32,390 bases of DNA from IMG/VR virus record IMGVR_UViG_3300042691_031213, positions 1 to 32,390 of that record. The stretch is one strand, 5' to 3'. The translations under genes were made by a program, and so were the position numbers. This DNA is from a virus. Positions 8,179 to 31,819 of the stretch are shown piece after piece. The notes beneath the pieces were generated by a model. The model was not told the origin of the DNA. It searched no databases and saw nothing but the letters and a program-made list of their open reading frames with translations. Every line of letters begins with the position of its first letter. Position 1 is the first letter of the stretch.

Positions 8179-9405
8179 ATGAAATTTTGGGACACAGGCG
8201 AAGTAGCCGTAAAAAAAGAAGGTTTTGATTTTGATAAAGAGAAAGCAGCATTGATTGCAAACTTGGATTATCTCTTTGCAATGTCAGTTCAGGAACAAAC
8301 TCTCTACAAAAAGTGGTTAGAGTGGAATGAAGATTTGCATGCAAGTATGAAAACTTTACCTGCATTACATGCTCAATACGATAAGATTTGGAAACCTAAA
8401 GATATAAACGATAAAGCCGGAACTATTGCAGAAATAGAAGGGATGCAACCTTATGTAGAATTGGTTGAGGAAGGTGATGAAGCAACGAAGTGGACTTATA
8501 TGAGAAAATTAATAAGTTCTATGGAGTTCACACCAAACCCAGGTCGAAATGTAAAAGCATTTGTTAAAGATAGAATATCAGGAAAAGTGTTGGGTGTTAT
8601 ATCATTGGGTTCGGATATTACCAGTTTGGGTGTAAGAGATGAATATATTGGTTGGACCAAAGAAGATAAATTTGAAAAAGGTAAATTAAATTGTACAGCA
8701 ATTGGAACTTCTATTATTGCAACACAACCTTTAGGTTATAATTTTTTAGGTGGTAAGTTGGTATCAGCATTAACTACATCACCTACATTTAGAGAGCATT
8801 GGAAACAAAAATATAATAATACCTTAATTGCAGTTGGAACAACTTCTCTTTATGGTATTCATTCACAATACAATGCTATTCCGCATTTTAAAACATTGGG
8901 TGAAAGTAAAGGTAAAATTAGTATAAAACCCGATGATAAATTCTATGACCCGTGGCATCAATGGTTAAAAGAAAATCGTTCAGAATGGTATCAAAATAAT
9001 ATTACAAATGAACGTATTCGTAATGGTGCTAATATGGGATATGAAGCTAACGGACCTGTTAGTGGTATCAAACAAAAAATCCTAACACAAATATTCAGAG
9101 AATGTGGTATCAAAGCAGACCAATATCATCATGGGTTTAAAAGAGGTGTATACTTTGCAATGATGTATGATAACGGATGTGAGTATCTTTGTGATAAGAT
9201 TACGGAAGACCAATTGGTAATGAAAGATAAATTTGTGGAAGGTGATGAATATACAATTCGTTGGTGGAAAAAACAAGCAATCAAACGATATACAAAATTA
9301 CACGAAGAAGGTAGATTAAAAGATGAAACCCTATTTTACGCAGACGCAATCGGATTGACTTGGGAACAAATGAAAGAAAAATTTTTAGCAGACGTAGGAA
9401 GATAA
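8179..9405 (+). CDS. DUF4338 (DruA)-like protein
   Basis: A 408-residue protein. Residues about 105-235 resemble the DUF4338 domain of DruA, a component of Druantia anti-phage systems: VLGVISLGSDITSLGVRDEY (137-156) followed by IGW (157-159), a central segment with LNCTAIGTSIIATQPLGYN (170-188), LGGKLVSAL (190-198) and WKQKYNNTLIAVGTTSLYG (208-226). The C-terminal ~170 residues are basic and aromatic-rich and unassigned. Start ATG 8179 lies three bases after a -7 box. The neighbouring Mom-like gene suggests a shared DNA-directed or counter-defence role. The DUF4338 link is from pattern memory and is moderate; no catalytic residues can be named with confidence. Confidence 0.6.
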   Translation: MKFWDTGEVAVKKEGFDFDKEKAALIANLDYLFAMSVQEQTLYKKWLEWNEDLHASMKTLPALHAQYDKIWKPKDINDKAGTIAEIEGMQPYVELVEEGDEATKWTYMRKLISSMEFTPNPGRNVKAFVKDRISGKVLGVISLGSDITSLGVRDEYIGWTKEDKFEKGKLNCTAIGTSIIATQPLGYNFLGGKLVSALTTSPTFREHWKQKYNNTLIAVGTTSLYGIHSQYNAIPHFKTLGESKGKISIKPDDKFYDPWHQWLKENRSEWYQNNITNERIRNGANMGYEANGPVSGIKQKILTQIFRECGIKADQYHHGFKRGVYFAMMYDNGCEYLCDKITEDQLVMKDKFVEGDEYTIRWWKKQAIKRYTKLHEEGRLKDETLFYADAIGLTWEQMKEKFLADVGR

Positions 9406-17506: not shown

Positions 17507-18886
17507 ATGGCAAAAAAGAAGATTCTGTTACTTTCAGATGATTTAAGAATGGCAAGTGGTATTGCCAATGTTTCCAAACAATTAGTATTGGGAACAGTTG
17601 ATAAATACGATTGGGTTCAATTAGGAGCCGCAATCAAACATCCAGAAGCCGGTAAGGTTATGGATTTAAATGAAGATGTTCGTAAGAGAACAGGCGTTGC
17701 AGATGCAAATGTAAAAATTTATCCATTTGATGGTTATGGTAATCCTGATGTCATTAGACAACTACTTATGGTAGAGAAACCTGATGCTATCCTACACTTT
17801 ACTGACCCACGTTATTGGATTTGGTTATATGAAATGGCACATGAGATTCGCCAATCAGTACCCCTTTTCTTTTATCACATTTGGGATGATTTGCCAGACC
17901 CAAAATACAATAGAGATTACTATGAAAGTTGTGATTGGATTGGAACTATTTCAAAACAAACTTATGGTATTACTAAAAGAGTTTGGAGTTGGGATAAAGA
18001 AAAACATTGGACTAAACCCGAAGATTGGCAAGTAAGTTATGTACCACACGGTATTAATTCCGAAGATTATAAACCGATTGATGTTCCTGAAGATTTTAAG
18101 AAAAGTATTTTTGGTGATAAAGATTATGAATTTGTTCTCTATTGGTCAAATAGAAATATTCGCAGAAAACAACCAATTGATGCAATGCTTGCTTTTGAAG
18201 AGTTTAGACAAACATTGAGACCGGAACAAAGAGATAAAGTTTGTATGTTGATGCACACATCGCCGGTTGATGAAAATGGAACGGATTTACCAAAGGTAGC
18301 AGAACATTTGATGCCAGAAGCAAATATTATTTTTGCACCAAATAGATACACAGAAATAGAATTAAACTATCTTTATAATTTAGCAGATGTAACAATTAAT
18401 GTTGCATCAAACGAAGGATTTGGATTGGCAACCGCAGAATCAGTTATGGCTGGTACACCAATCATTGTAAACGTAACTGGTGGATTGCAAGACCAATGTG
18501 GATTTAGAGTTAAAGGAAGTGGAAAATTACTAACTGCTGAAGATTATGTGGAGATTGGTTCATTACATGATAGATACAAAAAGAATACTCATGTTTGGGG
18601 AGATTGGGTAACGCCTATTTGGCCGGTTCGTTCAACAACAGGTTCGGTTCCTACTCCATATATCTTTGATGATAGAATTGATTTTCAGGATGTAGCACCT
18701 TTACTTCGTTATTGGTATGATATGGGTAGAGAAGCTAGAAAAGAAGCAGGACTTAAAGGTAGAAAATGGATGTTAGGAGAAGGAAATTTAAGTAGAGAGT
18801 ATATGTGTCAATCTTTAGTAGAAGGTATGGAAGGCGCATTTGAAAATTGGAAACCTATTAAAAAATATCAATTAGTTACAATATGA
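17507..18886 (+). CDS. Glycosyltransferase, GT4-like (GT-B fold)
   Basis: A 459-residue GT-B glycosyltransferase and the first gene of the glycan locus. The C-terminal donor-binding domain contains NRYTEIELNYLYNLADV (279-295) and the retaining-GT E(x7)E motif EGFGLATAE (Glu303, Glu311), followed by AGTPIIVNVTGG. The N-terminal acceptor domain begins KKILLLSDD. It would transfer a sugar from a nucleotide donor in the cytoplasm; donor and acceptor are unknown. It starts 25 bases after the nuclease gene, with TATATTTT (17488-17495) in the gap but no TTTG at the proper distance, so read-through from the promoter at 16561 is likelier. It overlaps the next GT by ATGA. Confidence 0.88.
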   Translation: MAKKKILLLSDDLRMASGIANVSKQLVLGTVDKYDWVQLGAAIKHPEAGKVMDLNEDVRKRTGVADANVKIYPFDGYGNPDVIRQLLMVEKPDAILHFTDPRYWIWLYEMAHEIRQSVPLFFYHIWDDLPDPKYNRDYYESCDWIGTISKQTYGITKRVWSWDKEKHWTKPEDWQVSYVPHGINSEDYKPIDVPEDFKKSIFGDKDYEFVLYWSNRNIRRKQPIDAMLAFEEFRQTLRPEQRDKVCMLMHTSPVDENGTDLPKVAEHLMPEANIIFAPNRYTEIELNYLYNLADVTINVASNEGFGLATAESVMAGTPIIVNVTGGLQDQCGFRVKGSGKLLTAEDYVEIGSLHDRYKKNTHVWGDWVTPIWPVRSTTGSVPTPYIFDDRIDFQDVAPLLRYWYDMGREARKEAGLKGRKWMLGEGNLSREYMCQSLVEGMEGAFENWKPIKKYQLVTI

Positions 18887-20151
18887 AACCAACATTAGTA
18901 TTTCAAGCACCAATTGCAACAAGAAGTGGATATGGTGACCACGCGAGAGATTTGTTGCATTCATTATATAAGTTAGATAAATTTGATATCAAAGTAATCA
19001 GTACTCGTTGGGGTAATACTCCAATGGATGCTCTAAACTATTCGGATGATTTTCATAAATGGATTATAGAAAATATAATACCATCAATTCAACAAAAGCC
19101 CGATGTTTATATGCAAGTTACTGTTCCAAATGAGTTTCAAGCATTGGGACATTATAATATCGGAATTACAGCTGGTATTGAAACCACAGCATGTGCATTG
19201 GATTGGATACATGGGTGTAATAGAATGGATTTAATTATCACGCCGTCCGAACATGCGAAAGTAAGTTTAGTTGGAACAATCTATAATGAAGCAAATCAAC
19301 AAACCGGTCAATTAATTAAACAACATAAAATACAAAAACCAGTTGAAGTTCTTTTTGAAGGATTCAATGAAAATGATTTCGCAACTAATGAAATTAAACA
19401 TATTTCTGAATTAGATGCCGTTAAAGAAGATTTTGCATTCCTATTCGTAGGCCATTGGTTAAAGGGTGATTTGGGAGAGGATAGAAAGAATGTAGGTATG
19501 ATGATTAAAACATTTGCAATGGCTTTTAAAGATGAAAAAATTAAACCAGCATTGATTCTTAAAACATCATCTGCAACATTTAGTGTATTGGATAGAGAAG
19601 GAATTATATCTAAAATAAAATTTGCATTAGGTAAAGATTATGGAAAAGTTCCTGTATATTTGATACATGGTGATATGAGTGCATCTGAATTAAATGGTTT
19701 GTATGAACACCCAAAGGTAAAAGCAATGTTGAATTTCACAAAGGGTGAAGGATTTGGCAGACCTTTATTAGAATTTAGTTTGACAGGTAAACCTGTAATC
19801 GTTTCTAATTGGAGTGGTCATTTGGATTTCTTAAAAAGTGGAGCGGTATTATTGGATGGTGAATTAAAAGCCGTACATGAATCAGCTGCTGACCAATTCC
19901 TATTAAAAGAATCACAATGGTTTAATGTAAATATTTCTAAAGCATTACAAAGTATTAAAGATGTTTATAAGAATTATGATAAATACAAAGTAGCAGCATT
20001 CCAATTGGGCAAACAAAACAAACAAAACTTTAGTTTAGAAAAAATGACTAAATTGTTTGATAATATTTTAAATCAGTATGGTATTTATAGTAAAGTACAA
20101 CCAAAGTTTCAGCAATTACAATTACCTAAATTAAAAATGTTGAATAAATAA
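18883..20151 (+). CDS. Glycosyltransferase, GT4-like (GT-B fold)
   Basis: A 422-residue second GT-B enzyme, coupled to the first by an ATGA overlap. The retaining E(x7)E motif is EGFGRPLLE (Glu289, Glu297), followed by TGKPVIVSNWSGHLDFL, the usual donor-site segment. The N-terminal domain includes RSGYGDHARDL (14-24), as in GT4 enzymes, and ITAGIETTACALDW (95-108). The two adjacent GT4 genes probably add successive sugars to the same acceptor. The gene ends with a TAATG overlap with the following unknown gene. Confidence 0.88.
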   Translation: MKPTLVFQAPIATRSGYGDHARDLLHSLYKLDKFDIKVISTRWGNTPMDALNYSDDFHKWIIENIIPSIQQKPDVYMQVTVPNEFQALGHYNIGITAGIETTACALDWIHGCNRMDLIITPSEHAKVSLVGTIYNEANQQTGQLIKQHKIQKPVEVLFEGFNENDFATNEIKHISELDAVKEDFAFLFVGHWLKGDLGEDRKNVGMMIKTFAMAFKDEKIKPALILKTSSATFSVLDREGIISKIKFALGKDYGKVPVYLIHGDMSASELNGLYEHPKVKAMLNFTKGEGFGRPLLEFSLTGKPVIVSNWSGHLDFLKSGAVLLDGELKAVHESAADQFLLKESQWFNVNISKALQSIKDVYKNYDKYKVAAFQLGKQNKQNFSLEKMTKLFDNILNQYGIYSKVQPKFQQLQLPKLKMLNK

Positions 20152-20624
20152 TGAGTAATTTTAATCCCATATATCGTAAATTTGTAGATGATAGAAATGT
20201 AATATCCGCTAACAAAATGTCTAGAGGTAAATTCTATCTTATAAAAGAGTATGAGTATGTGGATGGTGAAAAGGGTAGATTTAGTGAAACTACAGCTCCT
20301 ATTGTTTTTACTTTATTCGTTTCAAAAGCAAAAGATATAATACATTGTATAAAAGTATCAAATGTAAATCCAAATCTAATTAAAAGATTCTTTGGAAAAT
20401 TTGTAAATGAAGATACTGAAAGGTTGCAGATGAGAGGAAATGCAAAACAAATATATTCAAAAACTATAAGTAAAATGCCAGCAATTACAGATGATTCATA
20501 TAGAACATATAAAATGAGTGGTTTAAGAAAAGTAATTGAATTAAATATGGATGTAAATCAAATTACACCTAAAAATAAAAACGTAATTGGAATAGATACA
20601 AAATCACAAAAAAGAAACGTATAA
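20151..20624 (+). CDS. Conserved-looking phage protein of unknown function
   Basis: A 157-residue basic protein I cannot place in a family. It contains SRGKFYLIKEYEYVDGEKG (24-42), ending just before RFSETTAPIVFTLFVSKAKD, and a later LIKRFFGKFVNEDTERLQM. It looks like a single compact alpha/beta domain without signal peptide or membrane segment. It has a one-base TAATG overlap with the upstream glycosyltransferase and lies six bases before an SGNH gene. Its codon use looks like the core phage genes rather than the most AT-rich glycan genes. It could be a structural or DNA-associated phage protein sitting within the glycan locus. Confidence 0.7.
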   Translation: MSNFNPIYRKFVDDRNVISANKMSRGKFYLIKEYEYVDGEKGRFSETTAPIVFTLFVSKAKDIIHCIKVSNVNPNLIKRFFGKFVNEDTERLQMRGNAKQIYSKTISKMPAITDDSYRTYKMSGLRKVIELNMDVNQITPKNKNVIGIDTKSQKRNV

Positions 20625-20630
20625 TAAGTT

Positions 20631-21287
20631 ATGAATTCAGTTTGGACTTTTGGAGACTCTATGACAGCTCCGATAGGCGGTGACGGCCCGTATACAGAAT
20701 GGTTAGGAAAATCGGCAAAAACACATTGTAATTTTGTTGCTGAATATTTTGGTTTTACACCGATAAATAAAGGTGTATCAGGATCATCACCAAATCAAAT
20801 ATTTGATGATTTTATGGCAAATCATACAGATATAAAATCAGGAGATATAGTTACATTCGGATGGTCGCCTATAATGCGATATAGAATTGCTCGTAAAAAC
20901 GATCATGGTATGGTTTGGCAACAGTTTTGGGCAACATCCTTTAAGGGTGGTGTAGAAAAAGCATGTGTAGATGGAACTTATATAACAGAAGAAGTTGCAC
21001 AGCACATTATTTTAAACCGATATGAATTTAAATATTTTTATAGTGAAGAAGTAAATAGATGGATATCGTTTATAAAAGAGTGGGCAAAATTAAAAGGAGT
21101 AAAAGTGGTAAATTGGACTTGGTGTGATTCCAATTTTGGTGGAGCTCATAGTATTAATGTTGATATCCCAATTCGTACGAGAACGGATATGTCAATGGAA
21201 ACAAATAATGTCGTAAAAGATGGGCACTATGGTGAAGTTGGGCACAAAGAATTAGCAAAAGAAATTATTGAATTTTTAAATAAATAG
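20631..21287 (+). CDS. SGNH/GDSL-like hydrolase
   Basis: A 218-residue SGNH hydrolase with a classic block I WTFGDSMTAP (4-13, nucleophile Ser10), a glycine-rich block NKGVSGSSPNQIF, a TFGWSPIMRYR segment, and a C-terminal KDGHYGEVGHKEL giving Asp197 and His199 for the triad. It would cleave, or transfer, acyl groups, for example sugar O-acetyl groups, in keeping with the surrounding glycosyltransferases. No signal peptide is seen, so action is cytoplasmic or on virion components. It is the third SGNH-type gene in the window and the only one with the canonical GDS. Confidence 0.82.
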   Translation: MNSVWTFGDSMTAPIGGDGPYTEWLGKSAKTHCNFVAEYFGFTPINKGVSGSSPNQIFDDFMANHTDIKSGDIVTFGWSPIMRYRIARKNDHGMVWQQFWATSFKGGVEKACVDGTYITEEVAQHIILNRYEFKYFYSEEVNRWISFIKEWAKLKGVKVVNWTWCDSNFGGAHSINVDIPIRTRTDMSMETNNVVKDGHYGEVGHKELAKEIIEFLNK

Positions 21288-21289
21288 TT

Positions 21290-21574
21290 ATGACATCAAA
21301 AGAATTTGTTATTTGGTTAAAGGGATTTTCAAAAGCAGCAAACTCATATAATATTACACCAGCACAATGGGATGAAATACAGGAAGAATTAGAAAAAGTT
21401 AGTGATGAATTTAAACCAATGGGTGTAGCAATTGGAAGTGGTGGATTTGGAACGACTACACCTGGATTTGCAGTTACAACTACTCCAGGTTATGGTTCTA
21501 TTTCATATAACCCATCTACATCAACTACATATGATTATCCAAGTGGAAGTGCTTGGCATTATACAAATAGTTAA
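21290..21574 (+). CDS. Small phage protein with Gly/Thr/Tyr-rich tail
   Basis: A 94-residue protein. The N-terminal part, KEFVIWLKGFSKAANSYNIT then PAQWDEIQEELEKV, matches a small helical family frequent in tailed phages whose function is unknown to me. From residue ~48 the sequence turns into low-complexity Gly, Thr, Ser, Tyr and Pro with imperfect repeats (GFGTTTPGFAVTTTPGYG). Such tails are flexible and could be glycosylation targets or adhesive; that is inference. It follows the SGNH gene after two bases and precedes a GT2 gene by one base. Confidence 0.65.
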   Translation: MTSKEFVIWLKGFSKAANSYNITPAQWDEIQEELEKVSDEFKPMGVAIGSGGFGTTTPGFAVTTTPGYGSISYNPSTSTTYDYPSGSAWHYTNS

Positions 21575-21575
21575 T

Positions 21576-22199
21576 ATGAAATTAAGTTACGCAATAACGG
21601 CTTGTAATGAGCATGAAGAAATTATTCGTTTAGTCACACAATTACTAAACTACAAAGGAGAAAATTCAGAAATTGTAGTTCTATTAGATACTCCAAAGGC
21701 ACCAACTGAAATGTTAGAGTATTTAGAATTACAAGCAAATGCTGACCATATTACTCTAATTGAATCTGAATTTGATAATGATTTTGCACAATGGAAAAAT
21801 CTATTAAATTCACAATGTAAAGGTGAGTGGATATTTCAATTAGATGCGGATGAGTATCTTACTCCAGATTTGATTGATAATTTAGAAGATATTTTAGATA
21901 ACAATGGTGATAAAGATATGATAGTTATTCCTCGTATCAATACCGTTGAAGGATTAACACAATCACATATTCAAAAATGGGGATGGAACGTAAATGAAAA
22001 AGGTTGGGTAAATTTTCCAGATGTACAAACACGTATCTACAAAAATTCAGATAAAATAGGATGGAGTGGTAAAGTACATGAAAGAATTGTAGGATTTCAA
22101 AACTATACGGCATTTCCTGCAGAAGAAATATATTGTATTTTACATCCTAAAACAATTGATAGACAAGAAAAACAAAATGATTATTACGAAACTTTATAA
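21576..22199 (+). CDS. Family 2 glycosyltransferase (GT-A fold)
   Basis: A 207-residue GT2 enzyme. It begins KLSYAITACNEHEEIIRLV, the usual nucleotide-binding start, and WIFQLDADEYL (85-95) contains the metal-binding DxD (Asp90, Asp92). GWSGKVHERIVGF near the C-terminus is typical of lipopolysaccharide-core GT2 relatives (WaaE-like). The frame is open further upstream, but ATG 21576 follows the stop codon of the previous gene by one base and gives the proper N-terminus. It ends with a TAATG overlap with the next gene. Confidence 0.85.
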   Translation: MKLSYAITACNEHEEIIRLVTQLLNYKGENSEIVVLLDTPKAPTEMLEYLELQANADHITLIESEFDNDFAQWKNLLNSQCKGEWIFQLDADEYLTPDLIDNLEDILDNNGDKDMIVIPRINTVEGLTQSHIQKWGWNVNEKGWVNFPDVQTRIYKNSDKIGWSGKVHERIVGFQNYTAFPAEEIYCILHPKTIDRQEKQNDYYETL

Positions 22200-22861
22200 T
22201 GGTACATGTTTATTATCACATATACGCAGTTGATGGTGTAGAATCTATAATCGATGAACAAATTGGTTTAATTAAAAAACAATTCGATTTCCCATATAAA
22301 TTAAATATTGGAATTTCTATAGCAAATGAAAATATATCATCTAGAAATATTATAGAAAAAATTTATAACTATAATAATCCGAATTACAAAATAGTTGATA
22401 TTAGATGTAAAGGACATGAATTTGTTACATTGGATTTGATAATGAATGATAGAGAATCATTTTCAGATAACGACTACATTTTATATTTTCACACAAAGGG
22501 TGCATCAAAACAAAAAGAAGCAATATATGAAAATGTGGTATCATGGAGAAAAATGATGCAATACTTTTTAATTGAAAAACATAAAAGTGTTTTTAGAATT
22601 TTTGATAATACAGAATTCAACACATACGGAGTTTTACTAAATCAAATACATAATTTTAAACTACACTATTCTGGTAATTTTTGGTGGTCAAAAGCATCAT
22701 ATATTAAAACAATTGATTTAGACGGAATTAAAGCAAATAGAAGTGCAGCTGAAGTTAATTTTATCCAAAACGGAATAGACTGGAATCCATATTCACCATA
22801 TAATAATGATGTATTAAATAACTATGAGGTAAAGTTTAAAAGAGAAGAATATGCAAAATAA
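22199..22861 (+). CDS. Glycosyltransferase-like protein (YFHTKG / WWSK family), copy A
   Basis: A 220-residue protein that shares two strong blocks with the protein encoded at 29915: YILYFHTKGAS (93-103) and HYSGNFWWSKASYIKT (156-171), plus a Glu in AEVNFI (184-189). The blocks and the glycan setting suggest a small GT-A-like transferase, but I see no clear DxD and call it only glycosyltransferase-like. It is coupled at both ends: TAATG from the GT2 gene and an 11-base overlap with the next. Confidence 0.65.
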   Translation: MVHVYYHIYAVDGVESIIDEQIGLIKKQFDFPYKLNIGISIANENISSRNIIEKIYNYNNPNYKIVDIRCKGHEFVTLDLIMNDRESFSDNDYILYFHTKGASKQKEAIYENVVSWRKMMQYFLIEKHKSVFRIFDNTEFNTYGVLLNQIHNFKLHYSGNFWWSKASYIKTIDLDGIKANRSAAEVNFIQNGIDWNPYSPYNNDVLNNYEVKFKREEYAK

Positions 22862-23738
22862 AATAACATTTATATACGATTATAAAGATGGTGAAGTATG
22901 GTCAACACCAATGTCTTTAATTAATGAATTTAAAAAAAGAAATTGGATTGTCGATATAATCAAAACAAATGATACTGATTTAAAGAATTGGATAGATTCC
23001 AAACCAAAAACGGATATTGTATTGTTTATGGATTGGGGTAGATTTGATTCGCAATATTTAAATAAAGATTTAGTTCCTGCATTTTGGATACAAGAAAGTG
23101 GAGATGACCCGCAAAACTTTGAAAGAAATTACCCAAAAGCAAATAGATTTCATTTAACAATTACACCTGCAGCAAATTCATACGAAGAATATAAAAGTAG
23201 AGGAATAAATACATTGTGGATTACGCATTGGGCAGATACAGCAGTTCAGTTTCCAATGAATGTAGAACCACAATATGTGGGGGTTACAACTAGAGGACCT
23301 GGTGGCTCTCAATTTCTTGATTATCTTACAAATTGGGCAGAAGGAGTAATTGGTAATAGGAATGGAATGGAGGCAAACGAGCATACGGAATTTATTAATA
23401 GTGGTTTGATGGTTATTCAAAATAGTCGTTGGAAAGAAGTGACTCGTAGATTATTTGAAGGAATGGCATGTGGAAAATTAGTAATAACAGACCGTTTACC
23501 CGAAGAAGCAAGATTGAATGAATTATTTATAGAGGGTGAGGAAATCATTTTATATAATGATATGTTTGATTGTATTGAAAAAATAAACTATTACAATGAG
23601 AATGAGCAGGAAAGGGAGAGGATAGCATTTAATGGAATGCAAAAAGTATTAAACAATTATACACAAATTCAAGTAGTAGACAAATTAATAAAAGAACATG
23701 AAAGTTTTAATAACAGGAGTAGCGGGTTTGTTGGGTAG
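22851..23738 (+). CDS. Glycosyltransferase, CgeB-like
   Basis: A 295-residue GT-B-like protein resembling the CgeB/YkvP group. The C-terminal segment has RLFEGMACGKLVITDRLPEE (200-219), the donor-site signature, and an acidic EGEEIILYNDM segment where sugar-nucleotide contacts are expected. The N-terminal domain, beginning ITFIYDYKDGEVWSTP, would hold the acceptor. It is shorter than typical two-domain CgeB proteins. Its 3' end overlaps the epimerase gene by 41 bases, the largest overlap in the window, which suggests tight co-expression. Confidence 0.78.
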   Translation: MQNKITFIYDYKDGEVWSTPMSLINEFKKRNWIVDIIKTNDTDLKNWIDSKPKTDIVLFMDWGRFDSQYLNKDLVPAFWIQESGDDPQNFERNYPKANRFHLTITPAANSYEEYKSRGINTLWITHWADTAVQFPMNVEPQYVGVTTRGPGGSQFLDYLTNWAEGVIGNRNGMEANEHTEFINSGLMVIQNSRWKEVTRRLFEGMACGKLVITDRLPEEARLNELFIEGEEIILYNDMFDCIEKINYYNENEQERERIAFNGMQKVLNNYTQIQVVDKLIKEHESFNNRSSGFVG

Positions 23739-24690
23739 TAGGCTGGCCGATTGGATAATAGAAAACCATCCGGAAGTTGAAGTAGTGGGGATAGATGATT
23801 TAAGTGGAGGCTACAGAGAAAATGTAAATTCAAAAGTCAATTTTTGGCAAATGAATTTGGTTGAACATCCAATTGAAAATTGTTTTCAAAATCATAAATT
23901 TGATTATGTATTTCATTTTGCAGCATACGCAGCAGAAGGATTATCACCATTTATTAGACAATATAATTACGAAAATAATTTGGTAGCAACTGCAAGAATT
24001 ATTAACGAATGTATAAAGCACGATGTTAAAAGATTGGTTTTTACATCAACACTTGCCGTATATGGACATGGTAATTATGGTATCTTTGATGAAGAACAAA
24101 CTCCGAAACCAATAGACCCATACGGAGTAGCAAAATATGCATGTGAAATGGATATACAAATAGCTGGAGAACAGCATGGGTTAGATTGGTGTATTATTCG
24201 TCCACACAATGTTTATGGCATTAAACAAAACATCTGGGATAAATACAGAAATGTATTAGGTATTTGGATGTATCAATATATGAATGGCGAACCAATGACT
24301 ATATTTGGTGATGGTGAACAAAAAAGAGCATTTAGTTATATTGATGATATATTAGAACCACTATGGAATGCGGCCGTGAAACCAGAAGCATCAAAAGAAA
24401 TAATTAATTTGGGTGGTGTTGAGGAATGGACAATTAACAATGCTAATAAAGTTTTAATGGAAGTTATTACAAACGGAGAAGTTGTTTATAAAGAAGGTAG
24501 ACATGAAGTAAAAAATTCAATACCAACGCATCAAAAATCGGTAGATATAATTGGTTTTAAACATAAAACTACATTAAAAGAAGGATTGACAAAAATGTGG
24601 AATTGGGCACAAAAGCAACCACAAAGAAATAGATTTCATTGGGAAAAATATGAAATAGATAAAGGCATTTATTCATTTTGGAAAAAATAA
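23698..24690 (+). CDS. NAD-dependent sugar epimerase/dehydratase (extended SDR)
   Basis: A 330-residue extended short-chain dehydrogenase acting on NDP-sugars, close in pattern to UDP-glucose 4-epimerase. The NAD-binding motif is TGVAGLLGS (6-14, Gly7, Gly10, Gly13) and the catalytic residues are Ser117/Thr118 in FTSTLAVYG and Tyr142-x3-Lys146 in PYGVAKYACE. The FGDGEQKRAFSYIDD block binds the sugar nucleotide. It would supply an epimerised donor to the transferases around it. It starts inside the end of the CgeB-like gene. Confidence 0.9.
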   Translation: MKVLITGVAGLLGSRLADWIIENHPEVEVVGIDDLSGGYRENVNSKVNFWQMNLVEHPIENCFQNHKFDYVFHFAAYAAEGLSPFIRQYNYENNLVATARIINECIKHDVKRLVFTSTLAVYGHGNYGIFDEEQTPKPIDPYGVAKYACEMDIQIAGEQHGLDWCIIRPHNVYGIKQNIWDKYRNVLGIWMYQYMNGEPMTIFGDGEQKRAFSYIDDILEPLWNAAVKPEASKEIINLGGVEEWTINNANKVLMEVITNGEVVYKEGRHEVKNSIPTHQKSVDIIGFKHKTTLKEGLTKMWNWAQKQPQRNRFHWEKYEIDKGIYSFWKK

Positions 24691-24694
24691 AAAT

Positions 24695-25438
24695 ATGAAA
24701 AAATTACCAATCAGTATAGGGATATTAAGTTGGAATAGTGGGCAAGTATTAGTAGATACATTAACAACATTTCACAATAACGGATTGTTTGACATGGTGA
24801 ATGATGTAACTATCCTATTTCAAGAATTCAATGAACAAGATTATCAAATAGCAAAACATTTTGGATTGAATATTATTGGTATGAATTCTAATATCGGAAT
24901 TGGAAAAGCATTCATCAAACTAACTGAAAATGCACAGTCCAATTATGTGTTGGTGTTAGAACATGATTGGAATTTAATAGAAGATAGAAATACTACACAC
25001 GAAAGATTGCAAAGAAGTATATCGGCAATTGAAATGGGAATGGATGTTGTTAGATTAAGACACAGAAAAAATCCAGGCCACCCACATTTTTCATTTCAAT
25101 ATAGAGGAAGAGAATTAGAATATTATGATAAAGAGATTGAATGTACATCACCACATTTGCTTGACTCCGTACATTGGTGTGAACCTGATATACAATTTCC
25201 AGAACAAATAAAAAAATCGGAAGATATGTTTTGGACAACTTCTAGATATGGTAATTGGACAAACAATCCTTGTTTATATAAAAAAGAATTCTATTTGGAT
25301 ATAGTTAGACCGTTTGCAGGAGAAGGTATTGGATTAGAAGGTAATATTAGTAAATGGTGGGCTCAAGAAAATTATAAAGTTGGACATAACGAAGGATTAT
25401 TCATGCATAACGATTGGCAAAAGTATGGTAGAGTATAA
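24695..25438 (+). CDS. Family 2 glycosyltransferase-like protein
   Basis: A 247-residue GT-A-type protein. ISIGILSWNSGQVLVDTL (6-23) is the usual GT2 start, a Rossmann-like half follows, and VLVLEHDW (85-92) takes the place of the DxD (Glu89-His-Asp91). The C-terminal part carries several Trp and His residues (HWCEPDIQF, KWWAQENYKVG) that may shape the acceptor site. The altered DxD makes metal use uncertain. It overlaps the kinase-aldolase gene by 14 bases, linking transferase and precursor synthesis. Confidence 0.78.
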   Translation: MKKLPISIGILSWNSGQVLVDTLTTFHNNGLFDMVNDVTILFQEFNEQDYQIAKHFGLNIIGMNSNIGIGKAFIKLTENAQSNYVLVLEHDWNLIEDRNTTHERLQRSISAIEMGMDVVRLRHRKNPGHPHFSFQYRGRELEYYDKEIECTSPHLLDSVHWCEPDIQFPEQIKKSEDMFWTTSRYGNWTNNPCLYKKEFYLDIVRPFAGEGIGLEGNISKWWAQENYKVGHNEGLFMHNDWQKYGRV

Positions 25439-26849
25439 ACCATATATAATCAGTATAGCTGGAGATTCTGGTTCAGGTAAATCAACTATATCAAATTTTA
25501 TTCGATTATATTACGGATACGAAAATACAACTTTGATATCTGGAGATGATTTACACAGATGGGAAAGGGGCGATAAAAATTGGGAAACGATAACTCACCT
25601 AAACCCAGAGGCAAACAATCTTAAATTGGGTGATTTGCAGTTATTAACTTTAAGGGAAGGTGTAAAGGTTTTAAGAAAAAAATACAATCATAAGACAGGT
25701 CAATTTGGGGATATGGTTACAATACACCCAAACAAATATATTATAAATGAAGGATTGCATGCTTTTTATACAATAAGAGCGGAAACTCTTTCTGATTTAA
25801 AAATTTATATTGATATAGATGAAGATTTGAGAATAGACTTAAAAATAAAAAGAGATACTATTGAAAGAGGTTACAAAAGAGATGATGTTTTAGATTTGAT
25901 TGAGAAAAGAAAAATAGATTCGGAAAGAATAAAAAAAGTACAATTAGAAAAAGCAGACGTTATTATAAAAATTAAAAGAGGTTCTGAAATCCAAATAGAT
26001 TGTAAAAAAGATGTTGATTATTTATTATTAGATTTTATAAAAAAACTACACAAAGAATTACATACGTTTGAATGGATAAATAAAACAATTGGAGAAAGTT
26101 TGCCATTAGTACAATCAAAGGGTGGAAATATTTCTACAAAGATAGATAATAGGCTTATAATAAAAGAAAGTGGCGGAAAAATTAAAAATGTAAATTATTC
26201 ATCTGGATATAGCATATTGAATTACAAAAATTTTAATATTGATATTATAAATTCAGATAAAGAATTACACGATTTTTTATTGAGTTCTGTAAAAAATTCA
26301 ATATACAAAAAACCATCTATGGAAACTGGATTTCATACTCATTTTAAAAAGTACGTTTTTCATTTACATCCAATTTATTTGAATTGTATTCTTTGTTTAG
26401 AAAACGCAGAACAAATAATTAAAAAAATATTTAGTAATTTATTTGAATATAGTTTGATAGATTACTTTAATCCTGGATATGAACTTACAAACGAAATTAT
26501 AAAAAGAAAAGATTTAAAAGATATTATTTTTTTAAAAAATCACGGATTAATTGTATCATGTGATGATTGTTATGATGGAATATATTATGTTTCGCAAATT
26601 AATAAAATTTCAAAAGAATATATTAGACAAGAAATAAATGGATTTGAAGAATTTTCAATAGACTGGAAAGATAAAACACAAATAGATTCTTATAGTTGGC
26701 CGGATTCGGTTATATTAAGCGATCATGAAACCATTGCTACAAATAATTACATAAATTACATTGGAAGTAAATTGGGAACAATCAAAAAATTAAAAAAAGA
26801 AGATATTGAATATTTAAGAAATATAGAAGCAGAAAAATATAGGTTATGA
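25425..26849 (+). CDS. Fusion: phosphoribulokinase-like kinase + class II aldolase/epimerase domain
   Basis: A 474-residue two-domain protein. Domain 1 (about 1-205) is a PRK/uridine-kinase-type P-loop kinase: GDSGSGKST (13-21), SGDDLHRWERGD (39-50), a PRK-like LNPEANNL (59-66), YNHKTGQFG (87-95), INEGLH (107-112) and KIKRDTIERGYKRDD (140-154). Domain 2 (about 212-440) is a class II aldolase/adducin fold: KGGNIS (232-237), the SxE glutamate Glu300, zinc ligands His313 and His315 in FHLHP, and His373 in KNHGLI. Members of the second family are sugar-phosphate aldolases or ribulose-phosphate epimerases. Together they suggest phosphorylation plus aldol or epimerase chemistry on one small sugar; substrate unknown. 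The upstream frame is open, but ATG 25425 fits the domain start. It overlaps the next gene by ATGA. Confidence 0.85.
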   Translation: MVEYKPYIISIAGDSGSGKSTISNFIRLYYGYENTTLISGDDLHRWERGDKNWETITHLNPEANNLKLGDLQLLTLREGVKVLRKKYNHKTGQFGDMVTIHPNKYIINEGLHAFYTIRAETLSDLKIYIDIDEDLRIDLKIKRDTIERGYKRDDVLDLIEKRKIDSERIKKVQLEKADVIIKIKRGSEIQIDCKKDVDYLLLDFIKKLHKELHTFEWINKTIGESLPLVQSKGGNISTKIDNRLIIKESGGKIKNVNYSSGYSILNYKNFNIDIINSDKELHDFLLSSVKNSIYKKPSMETGFHTHFKKYVFHLHPIYLNCILCLENAEQIIKKIFSNLFEYSLIDYFNPGYELTNEIIKRKDLKDIIFLKNHGLIVSCDDCYDGIYYVSQINKISKEYIRQEINGFEEFSIDWKDKTQIDSYSWPDSVILSDHETIATNNYINYIGSKLGTIKKLKKEDIEYLRNIEAEKYRL

Positions 26850-28213
26850 TAAAATTGATAATTTTTGATATGGATGGTGTATTGGTTGAAGCAAAGCAAA
26901 TACACTATGATACTTTAAACAAAGCTTTGTGGGAAATTGCACAAAGTGATAAATATGTTATTTCAGAAGCAGAACATCTTTCCATATACGATGGATTAAA
27001 AACCAATCAAAAATTAGAGTTACTAACTCAAAATAAAGGATTACATCCAAACACATACGAAACAGTTTGGAATAGAAAACAACAACTTACGATTGAAGCA
27101 ATATCACAATTAAATACGGATGAAAGATTAATTTCAGTATTTAAAGAATTGCGTGATAGAGGGTATAAGCTTGCATGTTGCTCAAACTCAATTAGGCGTT
27201 CAGTATTGGTAATACTTTCGAAGATAGGATTGATTGAGTATATGGATTTAATTATCTCTAATGAGGATGTAAAGAACTCTAAACCACATCCTGAAATGTA
27301 TTGGAAGGCTATGAGTATGATGGGAGTATTACCGGAAGAAACCCTAATTGTAGAAGATTCACCTCCTGGTCTTTTAGCAGCAAGTAGAAGTAGAGCAAAT
27401 GTATTAAGAGTAGATAATCCAAAAGATTTGGTGTTATCAAAAATATTTAGTAAATTAGAAAAAACAGATAATATGAATATTCCAAAATGGCAAGGTGGAA
27501 AATTAAATGTACTTATACCAATGGCAGGAGCCGGTAGTAGATTTGAAAAAGCCGGATATACTTTTCCAAAACCATTAATAGATGTAAATGGTAAACCAAT
27601 GATTCAAGTTGTTATTGATAATTTGAATATCGAAGCTAATTACATATATGTAGTACAAAAAGAACATAGAGCAAAATATAATTTAGATACCCTTCTCAAT
27701 CTAATTACACCTGGTTGTAAGATTGTTGAAGTTGATGGCCTGACGGAAGGAGCAGCGTGTACAACCCTTTTAGCAAAAGAACATATTGATAACGATGCAC
27801 CTTTGTTGATGGCAAACTCTGACCAGTTTGTTGAATGGGATAGTAATGAGTTTATGTATAAAATGCTTGAACAAAAATTAGATGGTGGGTTTCTTACATT
27901 TAAAGCAACACATCCAAAGTGGTCATTTACAAAAGTAGATGAAAACGGATATGCAACTGAATTGGCTGAAAAAAATCCAATATCGGATATAGCAATTGTT
28001 GGTATTTACTATTGGGCAAGTGGTGCGGAATATGTGAAATATGCAGAACAAATGATTAGTAAAAATATCAGAACTAATAATGAGTTCTATGTTAGCCCCG
28101 TTTATAATGAAGCAATTGGTGATGGTAAAAAAATAAAACCATTTCACATAGAAAAAATGTGGGGATTAGGAACACCTGAAGATTTAGTTTATTATTTAGA
28201 AAATCACAAATGA
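26846..28213 (+). CDS. Fusion: HAD phosphatase/phosphomutase + sugar nucleotidyltransferase
   Basis: A 455-residue bifunctional protein. The HAD domain (1-205) has DMDGV with Asp8 and Asp10, the CSNS motif II (112-115), Lys146 in NSKPHPE and the acidic VEDSPPG (169-175), as in beta-phosphoglucomutase-like enzymes. The nucleotidyltransferase domain (218-455) begins LNVLIPMAGAGSRF with the nucleotide loop GAGSRF (228-233), then FPKPLIDVNGKPMI (240-253, Lys242), and ANSDQFV (323-329) with candidate metal ligand Asp326. It could dephosphorylate or isomerise a sugar phosphate and then make the NDP-sugar or NDP-polyol. ATGA overlaps on both sides couple it to the kinase-aldolase and GDPD-like genes. 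Confidence 0.92.
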   Translation: MIKLIIFDMDGVLVEAKQIHYDTLNKALWEIAQSDKYVISEAEHLSIYDGLKTNQKLELLTQNKGLHPNTYETVWNRKQQLTIEAISQLNTDERLISVFKELRDRGYKLACCSNSIRRSVLVILSKIGLIEYMDLIISNEDVKNSKPHPEMYWKAMSMMGVLPEETLIVEDSPPGLLAASRSRANVLRVDNPKDLVLSKIFSKLEKTDNMNIPKWQGGKLNVLIPMAGAGSRFEKAGYTFPKPLIDVNGKPMIQVVIDNLNIEANYIYVVQKEHRAKYNLDTLLNLITPGCKIVEVDGLTEGAACTTLLAKEHIDNDAPLLMANSDQFVEWDSNEFMYKMLEQKLDGGFLTFKATHPKWSFTKVDENGYATELAEKNPISDIAIVGIYYWASGAEYVKYAEQMISKNIRTNNEFYVSPVYNEAIGDGKKIKPFHIEKMWGLGTPEDLVYYLENHK

Positions 28214-28650
28214 TATTAATAGCACATAGAGGAAATATTGATGGAAGAATACCAAGTAGAGAAAATCATCCAGATTATATCAACGAAGCAATTAAAGAAG
28301 GATATGATGTAGAGATTGATGTTTGGTGGACTTCTGATGGTTGGTATTTGGGACACGATGAACCACAATATAAAGTGTATTCGGATTTCTTTTTTAATCC
28401 AAAATTTTGGATACATTGTAAAAATGCAGCAGCATTAGAAAGATTTAATAAGTGGAATAATCTTAAATACTTTTGGCACGCAAATGATGATTATACGTTA
28501 ATATCAAATGCAATGATTTGGGTATATCCAGGAAAAGAATTATTAAAAAATTCAATATGTTGTATGCCTGAATGGGGATTTAGTGGGGATTTATCAATTT
28601 GCCACGCAATCTGTACAGATGAGATTTTAAAATACAAAGAATTAATATGA
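28210..28650 (+). CDS. Short GDPD-like phosphodiesterase
   Basis: A 146-residue protein with the start of a glycerophosphodiester phosphodiesterase barrel: IAHRGN (4-9, His6/Arg7), SRENHPDYINEAIKEGYDVE with Glu18, EIDVWWTSDG (35-44; Glu35 and Asp37 as metal ligands) and GHD with His49 as second catalytic histidine. Normal GDPD barrels are about 240 residues or more, so the C-terminal strands are missing or replaced. CMPEWGFSG and ICTDEIL near the end may be the last barrel strands. It may cleave, or form, a phosphodiester in the glycan precursor. ATGA overlaps join it to both neighbours. Confidence 0.8.
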   Translation: MILIAHRGNIDGRIPSRENHPDYINEAIKEGYDVEIDVWWTSDGWYLGHDEPQYKVYSDFFFNPKFWIHCKNAAALERFNKWNNLKYFWHANDDYTLISNAMIWVYPGKELLKNSICCMPEWGFSGDLSICHAICTDEILKYKELI

Positions 28651-29348
28651 ATATAGCAATTTGTTTTTATGGACAACCGAGAAAATATAAGCAAGTATTA
28701 TCTCAATGGAAAAAAATTATATCGGAATTAAATGCCGATGTTTTTATTCATACTTGGTACGGACAAGATAGGGGTAGAGTTGATATAGATATAAATGAAT
28801 TAATTGAAGATTTTTCACCAAAAGAAATTGAAGTTTCATCACCGCATAAATTTACAGAATTAATACCTGAAGATTCAAAATATGAAAATCAATCATATCA
28901 TGGAATGAATCAAGCATATACTATAAATAAATCAATTCAATTGTTAGAAAGTTATTCATATAATTTTAAAAAATCTTATGATGTAGTAATAAAAACTAGA
29001 TTTGATATTACTTTACAAAATGTTGATGATTTTATAGAATTTGTAAAAACTAAAATTGAAAATAACAAATTATATGTTGCAGCAAATCATTGGGTAGGCT
29101 CGGAAATGTTTGATGATAACATAATGGTTGGAAAAGCAAGAGAAGTAATTTATATTTCGCATAGATATTTTCAGCATACAATTGAGTATATAAATAATAC
29201 AAAAGTAATACCAGGTGGTGAACAAAATGTTTTTAGATATATAAATTCAAATGGATTATTACAAACAATACAAAAAACTGATAATATAAATTTTAGTTTA
29301 ATACCATTACCATTTAACGAAATAATTTTAAATCAAAATGAAAAATAG
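28647..29348 (+). CDS. Glycosyltransferase-like protein (ICFYGQPR family)
   Basis: A 233-residue protein with IAICFYGQPRKY (3-14), DVFIHTWYGQ (31-40) and DVVIKTRFDI (about 111-120). This set is common in small glycosyltransferase-like proteins of bacterial and phage polysaccharide loci; the IKTRFD block probably replaces the DxD. The assignment as a transferase is by context and pattern. It overlaps the GDPD-like gene by ATGA and the following methyltransferase gene by 11 bases. It is among the most AT-rich genes in the window. Confidence 0.68.
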   Translation: MNIAICFYGQPRKYKQVLSQWKKIISELNADVFIHTWYGQDRGRVDIDINELIEDFSPKEIEVSSPHKFTELIPEDSKYENQSYHGMNQAYTINKSIQLLESYSYNFKKSYDVVIKTRFDITLQNVDDFIEFVKTKIENNKLYVAANHWVGSEMFDDNIMVGKAREVIYISHRYFQHTIEYINNTKVIPGGEQNVFRYINSNGLLQTIQKTDNINFSLIPLPFNEIILNQNEK

Positions 29349-29922
29349 ATATATAGAAACTTTATTAAGATACGACTCTGCTTGGAAGGGTCATGGATTG
29401 TTTGCTATGAAATTAGTTGAAACATTTAATCCAAATGTAGTAGTGGATTTGGGAGTTGATTATGGTTTTTCAACATTCTGTTTTGGTTATCCACAAATAG
29501 GTAGTGTATATGGAATAGATTGGTTTCAAGGTGATGACCACGCCGGTCATAGAGATACATTAAATGAAGTAGATAATTTATATCAAGATTTGATAAAATG
29601 GTATGGCGTATCCAATATAGAATTTATAAAATCCGATTTTGCAGAAGCAGCAAAGAAATGGGATAAAGAAATCGATATATTACACATTGATGGATTCCAC
29701 TCATATGAAGCAGTTAAAAAAGATTACGAAAATTGGATAGGATTTTGCAAAGAAGATTCTATCATATTGTTTCACGATACTGAATCTTTTACTGAAACCG
29801 TTGGTAAATTTTTTAATGAATTGGAAGGTTATAAGTTTAATAGAACGAACTCTGCCGGTCTTGGTGTATTGACAAAATCAAAAATCGTTTATGAAAAAAT
29901 AAAACAATTTATAAATGAATAA
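29338..29922 (+). CDS. Class I SAM-dependent methyltransferase (Methyltransf_24-like)
   Basis: A 194-residue Rossmann-fold methyltransferase. SAM-binding motif I is VVDLGVDYGFST (35-46), YGIDWFQGD (58-66) carries the acidic residue after strand 2, and LHIDGFHSYEAVKKDYENW (115-133) is the family's hallmark, with metal-binding type Asp/His residues as in O-methyltransferases. It probably methylates a sugar hydroxyl. It overlaps the upstream gene by 11 bases and the downstream gene by 8, in keeping with one coupled operon. Confidence 0.87.
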   Translation: MKNRYIETLLRYDSAWKGHGLFAMKLVETFNPNVVVDLGVDYGFSTFCFGYPQIGSVYGIDWFQGDDHAGHRDTLNEVDNLYQDLIKWYGVSNIEFIKSDFAEAAKKWDKEIDILHIDGFHSYEAVKKDYENWIGFCKEDSIILFHDTESFTETVGKFFNELEGYKFNRTNSAGLGVLTKSKIVYEKIKQFINE

Positions 29923-30583
29923 AGTTATATTTTGGCATACATATTTGGTTGGTGATTATAAATTGGTAGTACAAGAGCAGATTACAAAATTAATAACATC
30001 AGGATTATATAATGAAGTAGATTATATATTCACTGGCATTTCCGCAAAAGTTATAGAAGATATAAATTGGTTTGTAGAACTATTAAAAAGTTACAAAAAA
30101 TTCTTTCCAATAATTCATACCGACACGGATGGAGAAAAACCAACTATGAGGTTACTATCAAATTATGCAAAAGAAAATGATTGTTACATAATGTATTTTC
30201 ATACAAAAGCAGTTTCAACTACGGGTATAAATAACACTATGTGGAGATATTCTATGGATTATAATTTAATATATAGATGGAAAGAATGTGTTCAATTATT
30301 GGATAGTGGCAGTGATGCTGTCGGTTGTAATTTAAGAAAAGATACGCATGTTGGGTATTATCCACATTTTAGCGGAACATATTGGTGGTCTAAATCTAAT
30401 TACATAAAAACGTTGGATGAAACATATTTGTATGATACACAGCTATTAGGTGATGCAAATCCATTGACTGTTGAATTTTTTATAGGTTCCAATCATAATG
30501 GAAATCTAACATCAATTTTTGAATGTAAAGATGAAGCACCTTACAGAGTAGAATGTTTAATTAATGAATATATAAAAATATAA
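29915..30583 (+). CDS. Glycosyltransferase-like protein (YFHTKA / WWSK family), copy B
   Basis: A 222-residue paralogue of the protein at 22199. Shared blocks are YIMYFHTKAVS (91-101), HFSGTYWWSKSNYIKT (151-166) and a Glu in LTVEFFIG (184-191). Identity outside these blocks is low by eye, so the duplication is old or the two were acquired separately. The transferase assignment is inference. It sits directly before the C-methyltransferase gene with no gap. Confidence 0.65.
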   Translation: MNKVIFWHTYLVGDYKLVVQEQITKLITSGLYNEVDYIFTGISAKVIEDINWFVELLKSYKKFFPIIHTDTDGEKPTMRLLSNYAKENDCYIMYFHTKAVSTTGINNTMWRYSMDYNLIYRWKECVQLLDSGSDAVGCNLRKDTHVGYYPHFSGTYWWSKSNYIKTLDETYLYDTQLLGDANPLTVEFFIGSNHNGNLTSIFECKDEAPYRVECLINEYIKI

Positions 30584-31819
30584 ATGAAAGAAGTTACAGA
30601 GGTTACAAACTGTCCAATCACAGGTGATTCGGATAGATTTACATACATTGATTTAGGATTGATGCCATTGGTAAATAATTTGTCTACTACTAGAGAAGAA
30701 TCCATCAATTGTAAAAAGTATCCACTAACGGTTCAGTATTTTAAAAAGAGCAAATTATCATGCCTTACTGAAAATGTAGACCCAAATTTAATGTTTTCAC
30801 AGTACGCATATAAATCAGGTGTTGTAAAAGCATTTGCAAGACATTGTGAAGAAATGTATGGATTTGTAAATACCTATCTATCTTTAAAGGCCGGAGATAA
30901 AGTATTAGATATCGGTGGAAATGATGGAACGCTATTACAAACATTCTTAAAAAAGAATTCAGAATTAGATGTTCTAAATGTTGATGCATCTAAAAATCTT
31001 ACAAAATTAAGTGAGGCAAAAGGAGTACCTACATATAATGCATTTTGGGGTGTTGAAACTGCTAAAAAATTAAATAAAAAATTTAGATTGATTACATCAA
31101 CTAATGTATTTCAACACACCCCACCAATCGTAGATTTTGTAGAAGCAATATCAATCAGCCTTGATAAATTTGGAATATGGTGTTTAGAATTTCCATATTG
31201 GAAAACTAATATGGAAACAAAACAATTTGACCAAATATATCATGAACATGTTTATTTTTATTTGGTAGAACCATTAAAACAATTAGTTGAACAATTTGGA
31301 TTAAGAATAATAAAAGTAGTTCCACAATCAATACATGGTGGTAGTTTAAGATTATTAATTTCCCATAAAGGAGATTTGGGAGAGGCTTGGCAACCGTGTT
31401 GGGGAGTTGATGAAGCAATAAAAAAAGAACAAACCATAACTGAAGAATATTATAGGGAATGGGGAAGTGTAATTGAAAACCACATTTCAGATTGTAACCT
31501 ATTTTTAAAATCTATAAAAAAAGATAATAAAACAATATTTGGGTTTGGAGCTGCAGCAAAGGGATGTATATTTTTGAATAGTGCTAATATAGACCATACA
31601 ATTTTAGATGTAGTAATAGATGATACCGATTTGAAACAAGAAAAGTTCATTCCAGGAACAGGTATTCAAATTAAAAGTAGAGAGTATTTAAAGAATAATA
31701 AACCGGATTACATTTTAATATTAGCACATAATTTTAAAGATGTTATTATTGATAGTTTAAAAAATGATGGATATGATGGAAAGTTTATTATATTATTTCC
31801 CACAATAACAATTGAATAA
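30584..31819 (+). CDS. Sugar C-methyltransferase-like protein (NovU/TylC3-type architecture)
   Basis: A 411-residue three-part methyltransferase. Motif I is VLDIGGNDGTLL (107-118). QIYHEHVYFY (217-226), SIHGGSLRLL (249-258) and the C-terminal GFGAAAKG (320-327) are diagnostic of the NDP-sugar C-methyltransferase family, which normally methylates C3 of a ketosugar. The N-terminal zinc-finger is degenerate: Cys10, Cys43 and Cys60 are present, but the usual CxxC pairs are not. A branched-chain sugar in the final glycan is therefore likely. It begins right at the stop of the previous gene and ends at the base before the next ATG. Confidence 0.87.
   Translation: MKEVTEVTNCPITGDSDRFTYIDLGLMPLVNNLSTTREESINCKKYPLTVQYFKKSKLSCLTENVDPNLMFSQYAYKSGVVKAFARHCEEMYGFVNTYLSLKAGDKVLDIGGNDGTLLQTFLKKNSELDVLNVDASKNLTKLSEAKGVPTYNAFWGVETAKKLNKKFRLITSTNVFQHTPPIVDFVEAISISLDKFGIWCLEFPYWKTNMETKQFDQIYHEHVYFYLVEPLKQLVEQFGLRIIKVVPQSIHGGSLRLLISHKGDLGEAWQPCWGVDEAIKKEQTITEEYYREWGSVIENHISDCNLFLKSIKKDNKTIFGFGAAAKGCIFLNSANIDHTILDVVIDDTDLKQEKFIPGTGIQIKSREYLKNNKPDYILILAHNFKDVIIDSLKNDGYDGKFIILFPTITIE

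Follow-up and report, generated by a model that had tools for sequence, protein, structure and literature searches.

A phage protein joining a phosphoribulokinase-like kinase to a class II aldolase, and the conserved gene cassette around it

The fusion gene within a viral glycan locus

The window, by which we mean the whole stretch of DNA analysed, is a virus record of 32,390 bases, whose replication genes include a DnaB-like helicase, ribonucleotide reductase, a DNA polymerase and clamp-loader genes. The DNA polymerase has its nearest relative in Microcystis phage Mel-JY01 (49.5%), then in cyanophages, so that the host, as judged from this kinship, may be a cyanobacterium. Locus L105 has no 31-mers in common with the window and is a separate record. 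Four other genes, all on the + strand, deserve a mention: a 386-residue protein (921-2081) with a match to a SPASM iron-sulfur domain near its N-terminus (1.4e-5), a phage-encoded GroES-like co-chaperonin (2090-2395; Cpn10, 4.3e-24), a Mom-family protein which would modify the phage DNA (7348-8151; 1.2e-41) and, within the replication region, a 408-residue protein (8179-9405) matching DruA, of the Druantia defence family (1.1e-17).

A glycan locus occupies positions 17507-31819 (+), as established by Pfam and by PHROGs glycosyltransferase matches: it holds several glycosyltransferases, an SDR, methyltransferases and the cassette described below, so that the glycan setting that the earlier note gave to the fusion gene holds. 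An NAD-dependent epimerase/dehydratase, GalE-like (23698-24690, +; Pfam Epimerase, 1e-44), lies outside the conserved cassette. The fusion gene itself (25425-26849, +) runs from ATG to TGA, encodes 474 residues, and shares 14 nt with the gene before it and 4 nt with the gene after it, an operon-like arrangement. The downstream gene (26846-28213, +) is a second fusion, of a HAD phosphatase of the beta-phosphoglucomutase-like subfamily (HAD_2, 1.1e-28; TIGR02009, 2.2e-27) with an NTP_transferase (1.6e-9); it is followed by a 146-residue protein resembling a miniature glycerophosphodiester phosphodiesterase, hereafter GDPD-like (28210-28650, +), with HRGN, ExD and GHD motifs.

In the fusion protein the kinase extends over residues ~5-195 and the aldolase over ~207-408, followed by a C-terminal helical tail that ends in ExxR. 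The earlier note had read the protein as a kinase of the phosphoribulokinase (PRK) type joined to a class II aldolase, and had proposed to check this by profile and structure-prediction searches. These were run, and they agree: PF00485 (PRK/uridine kinase) matches residues 8-183 (2.8e-35; 122.4 bits for a gathering score of 22) and PF00596 (Aldolase_II) residues 228-384 (1.5e-8; 35.2 bits for a gathering score of 22.2), while an AF2 model computed from an input of 34 fused viral homologues shows two confident domains (pLDDT 93.0, pTM 0.89), each with its own structural matches (best Z of 25.2 and 20.7, detailed below). Besides, the pairing had been presented as without known characterised phage counterpart; indeed none of 50,697 annotated phages encodes this protein, the single match there being a partial kinase at 32%.

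Active sites of the kinase and of the aldolase

The kinase domain (25437-25973, +) was examined by column counts over the 169 loci of the census presented below and by comparing its profile with the PDB. The motifs quoted earlier are all in place, GDSGSGKST at residue 13, LNPEANNL at 59, YNHKTG at 87 and INEGLH at 107, and with them the active-site set of PRK: Walker A (13-21), Asp41, His44, Arg48, Tyr87, His89, His112, Lys140, Arg143, Asp144, Arg148, Arg162, Asp165 and Gln173. At the catalytic and substrate positions from Walker A to Asp165 the window has the residues of all or nearly all “lone” PRKs, i.e. those encoded away from any cassette; Glu109 of the GLH motif, kept in the window, gives way to Ser or Cys in the majority of cellular cassette kinases. 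Three positions are proper to the cassette kinases: Trp46 and Trp53, invariant or nearly so, and position 58, occupied by His; lone PRKs vary there or have Pro or Ala.

The kinase profile reached PRK in the PDB at 2.7e-59 and uridine kinase at 3.7e-24, and the AF2 model matched the PRKs 9qko (Z 25.2, rmsd 2.0 over 205 residues) and 5b3f (Z 21.6). By these matches the kinase is specifically PRK-like, a closer assignment than “PRK/uridine-kinase family”. The NCBIfam model PRK07429 was matched below its cut-off (184.3 bits for 236), over positions 7-196 of its 326.

In the aldolase domain (26022-26846, +), the phosphate site is formed by GGNIS (233-237) and SG (249-250), the PSME motif holds Glu300, His304 is also present, and the metal ligands are His313, His315 and His373; the Glu/three-His site described in the earlier note is thus correctly numbered and intact. 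The three metal ligands are invariant in the 34 fused viral homologues, whose identity goes down to 33%, and Glu300 is found in 33 of them, the remaining one having a gap. More widely, 15 diverse cassette aldolases show no variation in the residues of the phosphate site, in the FucA-type Glu, in His304 or in the metal-binding His. Among solved structures, the AF2 model matched 3m4r, a class II aldolase domain from Thermoplasma (Z 20.7, rmsd 2.1 over 188), as well as FucA of B. thetaiotaomicron (Z 18.3), and the cassette aldolases match FucA/RhaD-type aldolases as well as the ribulose-1-phosphate (Ru1P) aldolase model (1e-11 in L148).

The domain had been labelled “aldolase/epimerase”. AraD, the L-ribulose-5-phosphate 4-epimerase, has Asp where FucA has Glu; the window has Glu300, and Glu is the residue of all 15 cassette aldolases. 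The first half of the label therefore stands, whereas the second is not given by the sequence, because the aldolase keeps the FucA-type Glu. For an aldolase of another family, 4-epimerase activity is reported (PMC5434028).

These residues bear on another reading of the protein, an ordinary uridine or nucleoside kinase carrying an inactive aldolase-like domain. The automatic label “uridine kinase” borne by a homologue on an E. coli plasmid speaks for it; nevertheless the match to uridine kinase is 35 orders of magnitude below that to PRK, and the aldolase retains its catalytic and metal residues, so that we consider this reading very improbable.

A cassette found across phages, bacteria and at least one archaeon

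Relatives of the kinase were gathered among viral contigs as well as genomes of bacteria and archaea, and neighbour profiles were run over the 169 sequences, which reduce by dereplication to 45 viral and 74 cellular clusters, the latter divided into 28 lone PRKs and 46 others. For those loci that were retrieved by the kinase alone, the association with neighbours is not built into the search. Beside the kinase, the recurrent members are the aldolase, one or more NTP_transferases, a HAD phosphatase and the mini GDPD-like protein. With profiles that were seeded from a few census loci, then iterated, and so tuned to the same set, aldolase, NTP_transferase and GDPD-like protein are found all together in 40/45 viral and 35/46 non-lone cellular clusters. 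Taken separately, the viral clusters have the aldolase in 43 cases, the NTP_transferase in 41, the GDPD-like protein in 42 and some HAD in 30 (our models detect none in the other 15); GtrA is found in 0/45. The non-lone cellular clusters have the aldolase in 41 cases, NTP_transferase in 43, HAD in 43, GDPD-like protein in 40, a GtrB-like GT2 glycosyltransferase in 44 and GtrA in 28. The lone PRKs, ~300-390 residues long and mostly from methanogens, act as an internal negative control: cassette neighbours are found in 0/28. The kinase-aldolase fusion reported at first is real, but too narrow a description, being one form of a widespread cassette of phages, bacteria and at least one archaeon; the earlier interpretation was right in outline and is partly supported.

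The carriers include Pseudomonas, Massilia, Lysobacter, Acetobacter, Legionella, Lachnospiraceae, Acidobacteria, a woesearchaeon and an E. coli IncR plasmid. Frequencies are low: 3/295 genomes in the Regiella family, 9/198 in the Lysobacter family, 2/199 in the genus Pseudomonas, and 2/5,426 in E. coli, both on plasmids, the chromosomes being without cassette. Such sporadic spread is a pattern typical of accessory surface-glycan genes. The first of these E. coli plasmids, a small IncR replicon from human stool (cassette at L010:6022-14984), has an IS26 transposase 1.6 kb downstream; the host of the second is given as a bullfrog. Open-access papers yielded no account of this gene combination, and the cassette is apparently an undescribed assembly of known protein families.

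The kinase has several fusion partners. All kinases fused to an aldolase fall in one clade (support 0.99), which also includes the unfused L104 and L141, the former truncated because its locus stops there; the fusion thus most likely arose once, as a monophyletic viral event. In the phages L007 to L009, the aldolase has a gene of its own and the kinase carries a different N-terminal domain, possibly a glycosyltransferase; in L007 its sole match is a weak one, to DUF7796. This domain begins “VALLISGYLRSY” in L007:7344-8801 and L009:7344-8801, and similarly in L008:7215-8657. In most bacterial cassettes a membrane domain of ~390 residues precedes the kinase in the same protein. The predicted structure of the one from Massilia (L016; AF2, pLDDT 89.6) matches the GT-C enzymes PIG-M, ALG6, PimE and ArnT, and on this model the domain has a GT-C glycosyltransferase fold. 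GT-C enzymes such as PIG-M, ALG6 and ArnT use polyprenyl-phosphate sugars, and the structures of these three have polyprenyl-phosphate ligands according to their entry titles.

The tree separates the cassette kinases from the lone PRKs (support 0.995), which matters for another reading, auxiliary carbon fixation, where a cyanophage-like virus would have acquired a PRK for the Calvin cycle. PRKs are indeed the nearest relatives of the kinase, and the DNA polymerase has the affinities to Mel-JY01 and cyanophages given above. On the other hand the kinase clade leaves out the sampled genuine PRKs, the aldolase takes the place of the PRK C-terminal domain, and the gene belongs to a glycan cassette whose association with nucleotidyltransferases is seen in other phages as well; we give this reading hardly any credit.

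The remaining partners are more diverse. For the HADs of bacterial-type cassettes, NF053830 (ribulose-1,5-bisphosphate 5-phosphatase) is the best of 18,950 models in 5/5 cases (2e-49, 3.5e-52, 1.3e-58, 6.4e-41 and 1e-31), at 110-198 bits, i.e. under the curated cut-off of 330. For the window HAD, NF053830 is not among the best 25 models, the top one being TIGR02009, and other phages have a third type, short and EcbF-BcbF-like. The nucleotidyltransferases form two classes: most phages carry the first only, and the window copy is intermediate. In the GDPD-like family the HRG, ExD and GHD motifs are invariant and the family profile matches a solved GDPD weakly (7e-4); the window protein has no Pfam match, and the bacterial homologues match no GDPD. 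The idea that a GDPD and two nucleotidyltransferases, by way of a cyclic phosphate, would place the phosphate on the anomeric carbon is unsupported by the counts, because most phages that keep the GDPD-like protein have only one nucleotidyltransferase.

A candidate donor-sugar pathway and its nearest known relatives

The kinase residues, the HAD model and the aldolase residues together point to a sequence from ribulose-5-phosphate to ribulose-1,5-bisphosphate (RuBP), to Ru1P and to an aldolase step. We propose, at about even chances, that the fusion protein provides the first and third enzymes of a pathway turning ribulose-5-phosphate into a nucleotide-activated ketopentose-derived sugar for glycans, to which the HAD and NTP_transferase encoded directly downstream in the window would also belong. 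The domains with their residues and folds, the recurrent company of genes and the GT-C fold of one kinase partner are observed; the substrates, the order of the steps, the product and any part taken by the GDPD-like protein are inferred. As a first step, which the conserved PRK active-site residues suggest, the kinase would add a phosphate at C1 of D-ribulose-5-phosphate or of a closely related ketopentose phosphate, and so form the 1,5-bisphosphate. The HAD phosphatase would then strip the 5-phosphate, leaving a pentulose-1-phosphate; this is suggested by the bacterial cassette HAD, closest to the RuBP 5-phosphatase, the window HAD being of another subfamily. The aldolase would apply FucA-type Zn chemistry to the ketose-1-phosphate and remodel it by retro-aldol/aldol reactions, e.g. 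turning D-ribulose into L-xylulose by epimerisation at C4, or exchanging the aldehyde; we favour remodelling because mere cleavage to DHAP and glycolaldehyde leaves the cassette no sugar to activate. The NTP_transferase would next activate the phosphate, and glycosyltransferases would use the donor: in phages those of the same locus, in bacteria the kinase-fused GT-C domain and the GtrB-like GT2, which a GtrA flippase often accompanies. In the L010 cassette, GtrA and GT2 match at 9.8e-19 and 9.8e-25 respectively (Pfam).

Several observations count against this pathway: the window HAD is beta-phosphoglucomutase-like, other phages have the short HAD type or, in 15/45 viral clusters, no HAD by our models, Glu109 is mostly replaced in the cellular kinases, the aldolase has the FucA Glu rather than the AraD Asp, and the pathway gives no step to the GDPD-like protein. 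Besides, we know of no precedent for a ketose that receives its nucleotide at a non-anomeric phosphate. As both HAD and kinase miss the equivalog cut-offs, the substrates may differ from ribulose phosphates. A glycan cassette acting on another kinase/aldolase substrate (a tetrulose, a ketohexose phosphate or a small polyol), and leading to a different activated sugar, accounts for these missed cut-offs, and Trp46, Trp53 and His58 would fit an altered substrate pocket; it agrees less well with the complete PRK active-site set of the cassette kinases and with their HAD being closest to the RuBP 5-phosphatase. We regard it as possible but rather unlikely.

Three kinds of enzymes of the cassette are also those of a catabolic route: biochemical work has established in haloarchaea a pathway that employs an RuBP phosphatase together with a FucA-like Ru1P aldolase (PMC9700705), and the cassette aldolases do match the Ru1P aldolase model. 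A catabolic role is nevertheless very improbable for the cassette: its upstream enzyme is a PRK and not an R1P kinase or R15P isomerase, and what is conserved beside it are nucleotidyltransferases, a GT2, GtrA and GT-C domains, not catabolic enzymes. This company argues for an aldolase that would remodel a sugar rather than feed catabolism.

Returning to the donor-sugar pathway, we suggest, more tentatively than for the pathway itself, a new nucleotide-sugar route starting from RuBP, in which the aldolase would alter the stereochemistry and which would have spread between phages and bacteria. If true, such a route could supply rare O-antigen pentoses, e.g. L-xylulose or L-xylose, the biosynthesis of which is, to our knowledge, not described. 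The O-antigen side chains of Y. enterocolitica O:10 contain L-xylulose; the link with the cassette stays a guess, because the O:10 O-antigen cluster is without cassette-type genes. A Xylella paper mentions xylulose, but only within the name of a plant gene. RuBP is an intermediate of the Calvin cycle; known from carbon fixation and archaeal nucleoside breakdown, it would in that case serve glycan synthesis too, and an accessory set of genes present in phages, bacteria and an archaeon would make an as yet unnamed donor sugar. Many genes labelled “uridine kinase” or “class II aldolase” in the neighbourhood of polysaccharide genes would then be re-annotated, and the fused phage enzyme offers a convenient single protein for the first steps of the pathway.

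Several elements of the cassette have known relatives from which they depart. The kinase shares with the class II PRKs of plants, cyanobacteria and archaea (9qko, 6hzk, 5b3f) the fold, the full active-site motifs and 33-34% core identity, but it has an aldolase in place of the PRK C-terminal domain, and on the cassette side additional conserved Trp, a separate clade and scores under the PRK07429 cut-off. The aldolase resembles FucA/RhaD-type aldolases (3m4r, 2opi) and the haloarchaeal Ru1P aldolase (NF053831) by its fold, Glu, three His, GN.S and SG, and differs by its position behind a kinase, an insert, the ExxR tail and the missed equivalog cut-offs. In ADP- and GDP-heptose pathways, a kinase makes a bisphosphate, a HAD trims it and nucleotide transfer follows; the cassette would obey, by analogy, the same logic, with a kinase of an unrelated family, and with an aldolase and a GDPD-like protein that have no equivalent there. 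Bacterial cassettes recall the GtrA/GtrB/GT-C modules of O-antigen modification by their GtrA, GtrB-like GT2 and GT-C-fold domain; they differ in including donor-making enzymes and in joining the kinase to the GT-C domain, and the phage loci in being devoid of GtrA. Finally, the non-carboxylating pentose bisphosphate pathway of haloarchaea (PMC9700705) has in common with the cassette the families of the RuBP 5-phosphatase and of the FucA-like Ru1P aldolase, with RuBP as presumed intermediate; but that pathway is catabolic and starts from an R1P kinase and an R15P isomerase, whereas the cassette has a PRK-like kinase, nucleotidyltransferases and glycosyltransferases.
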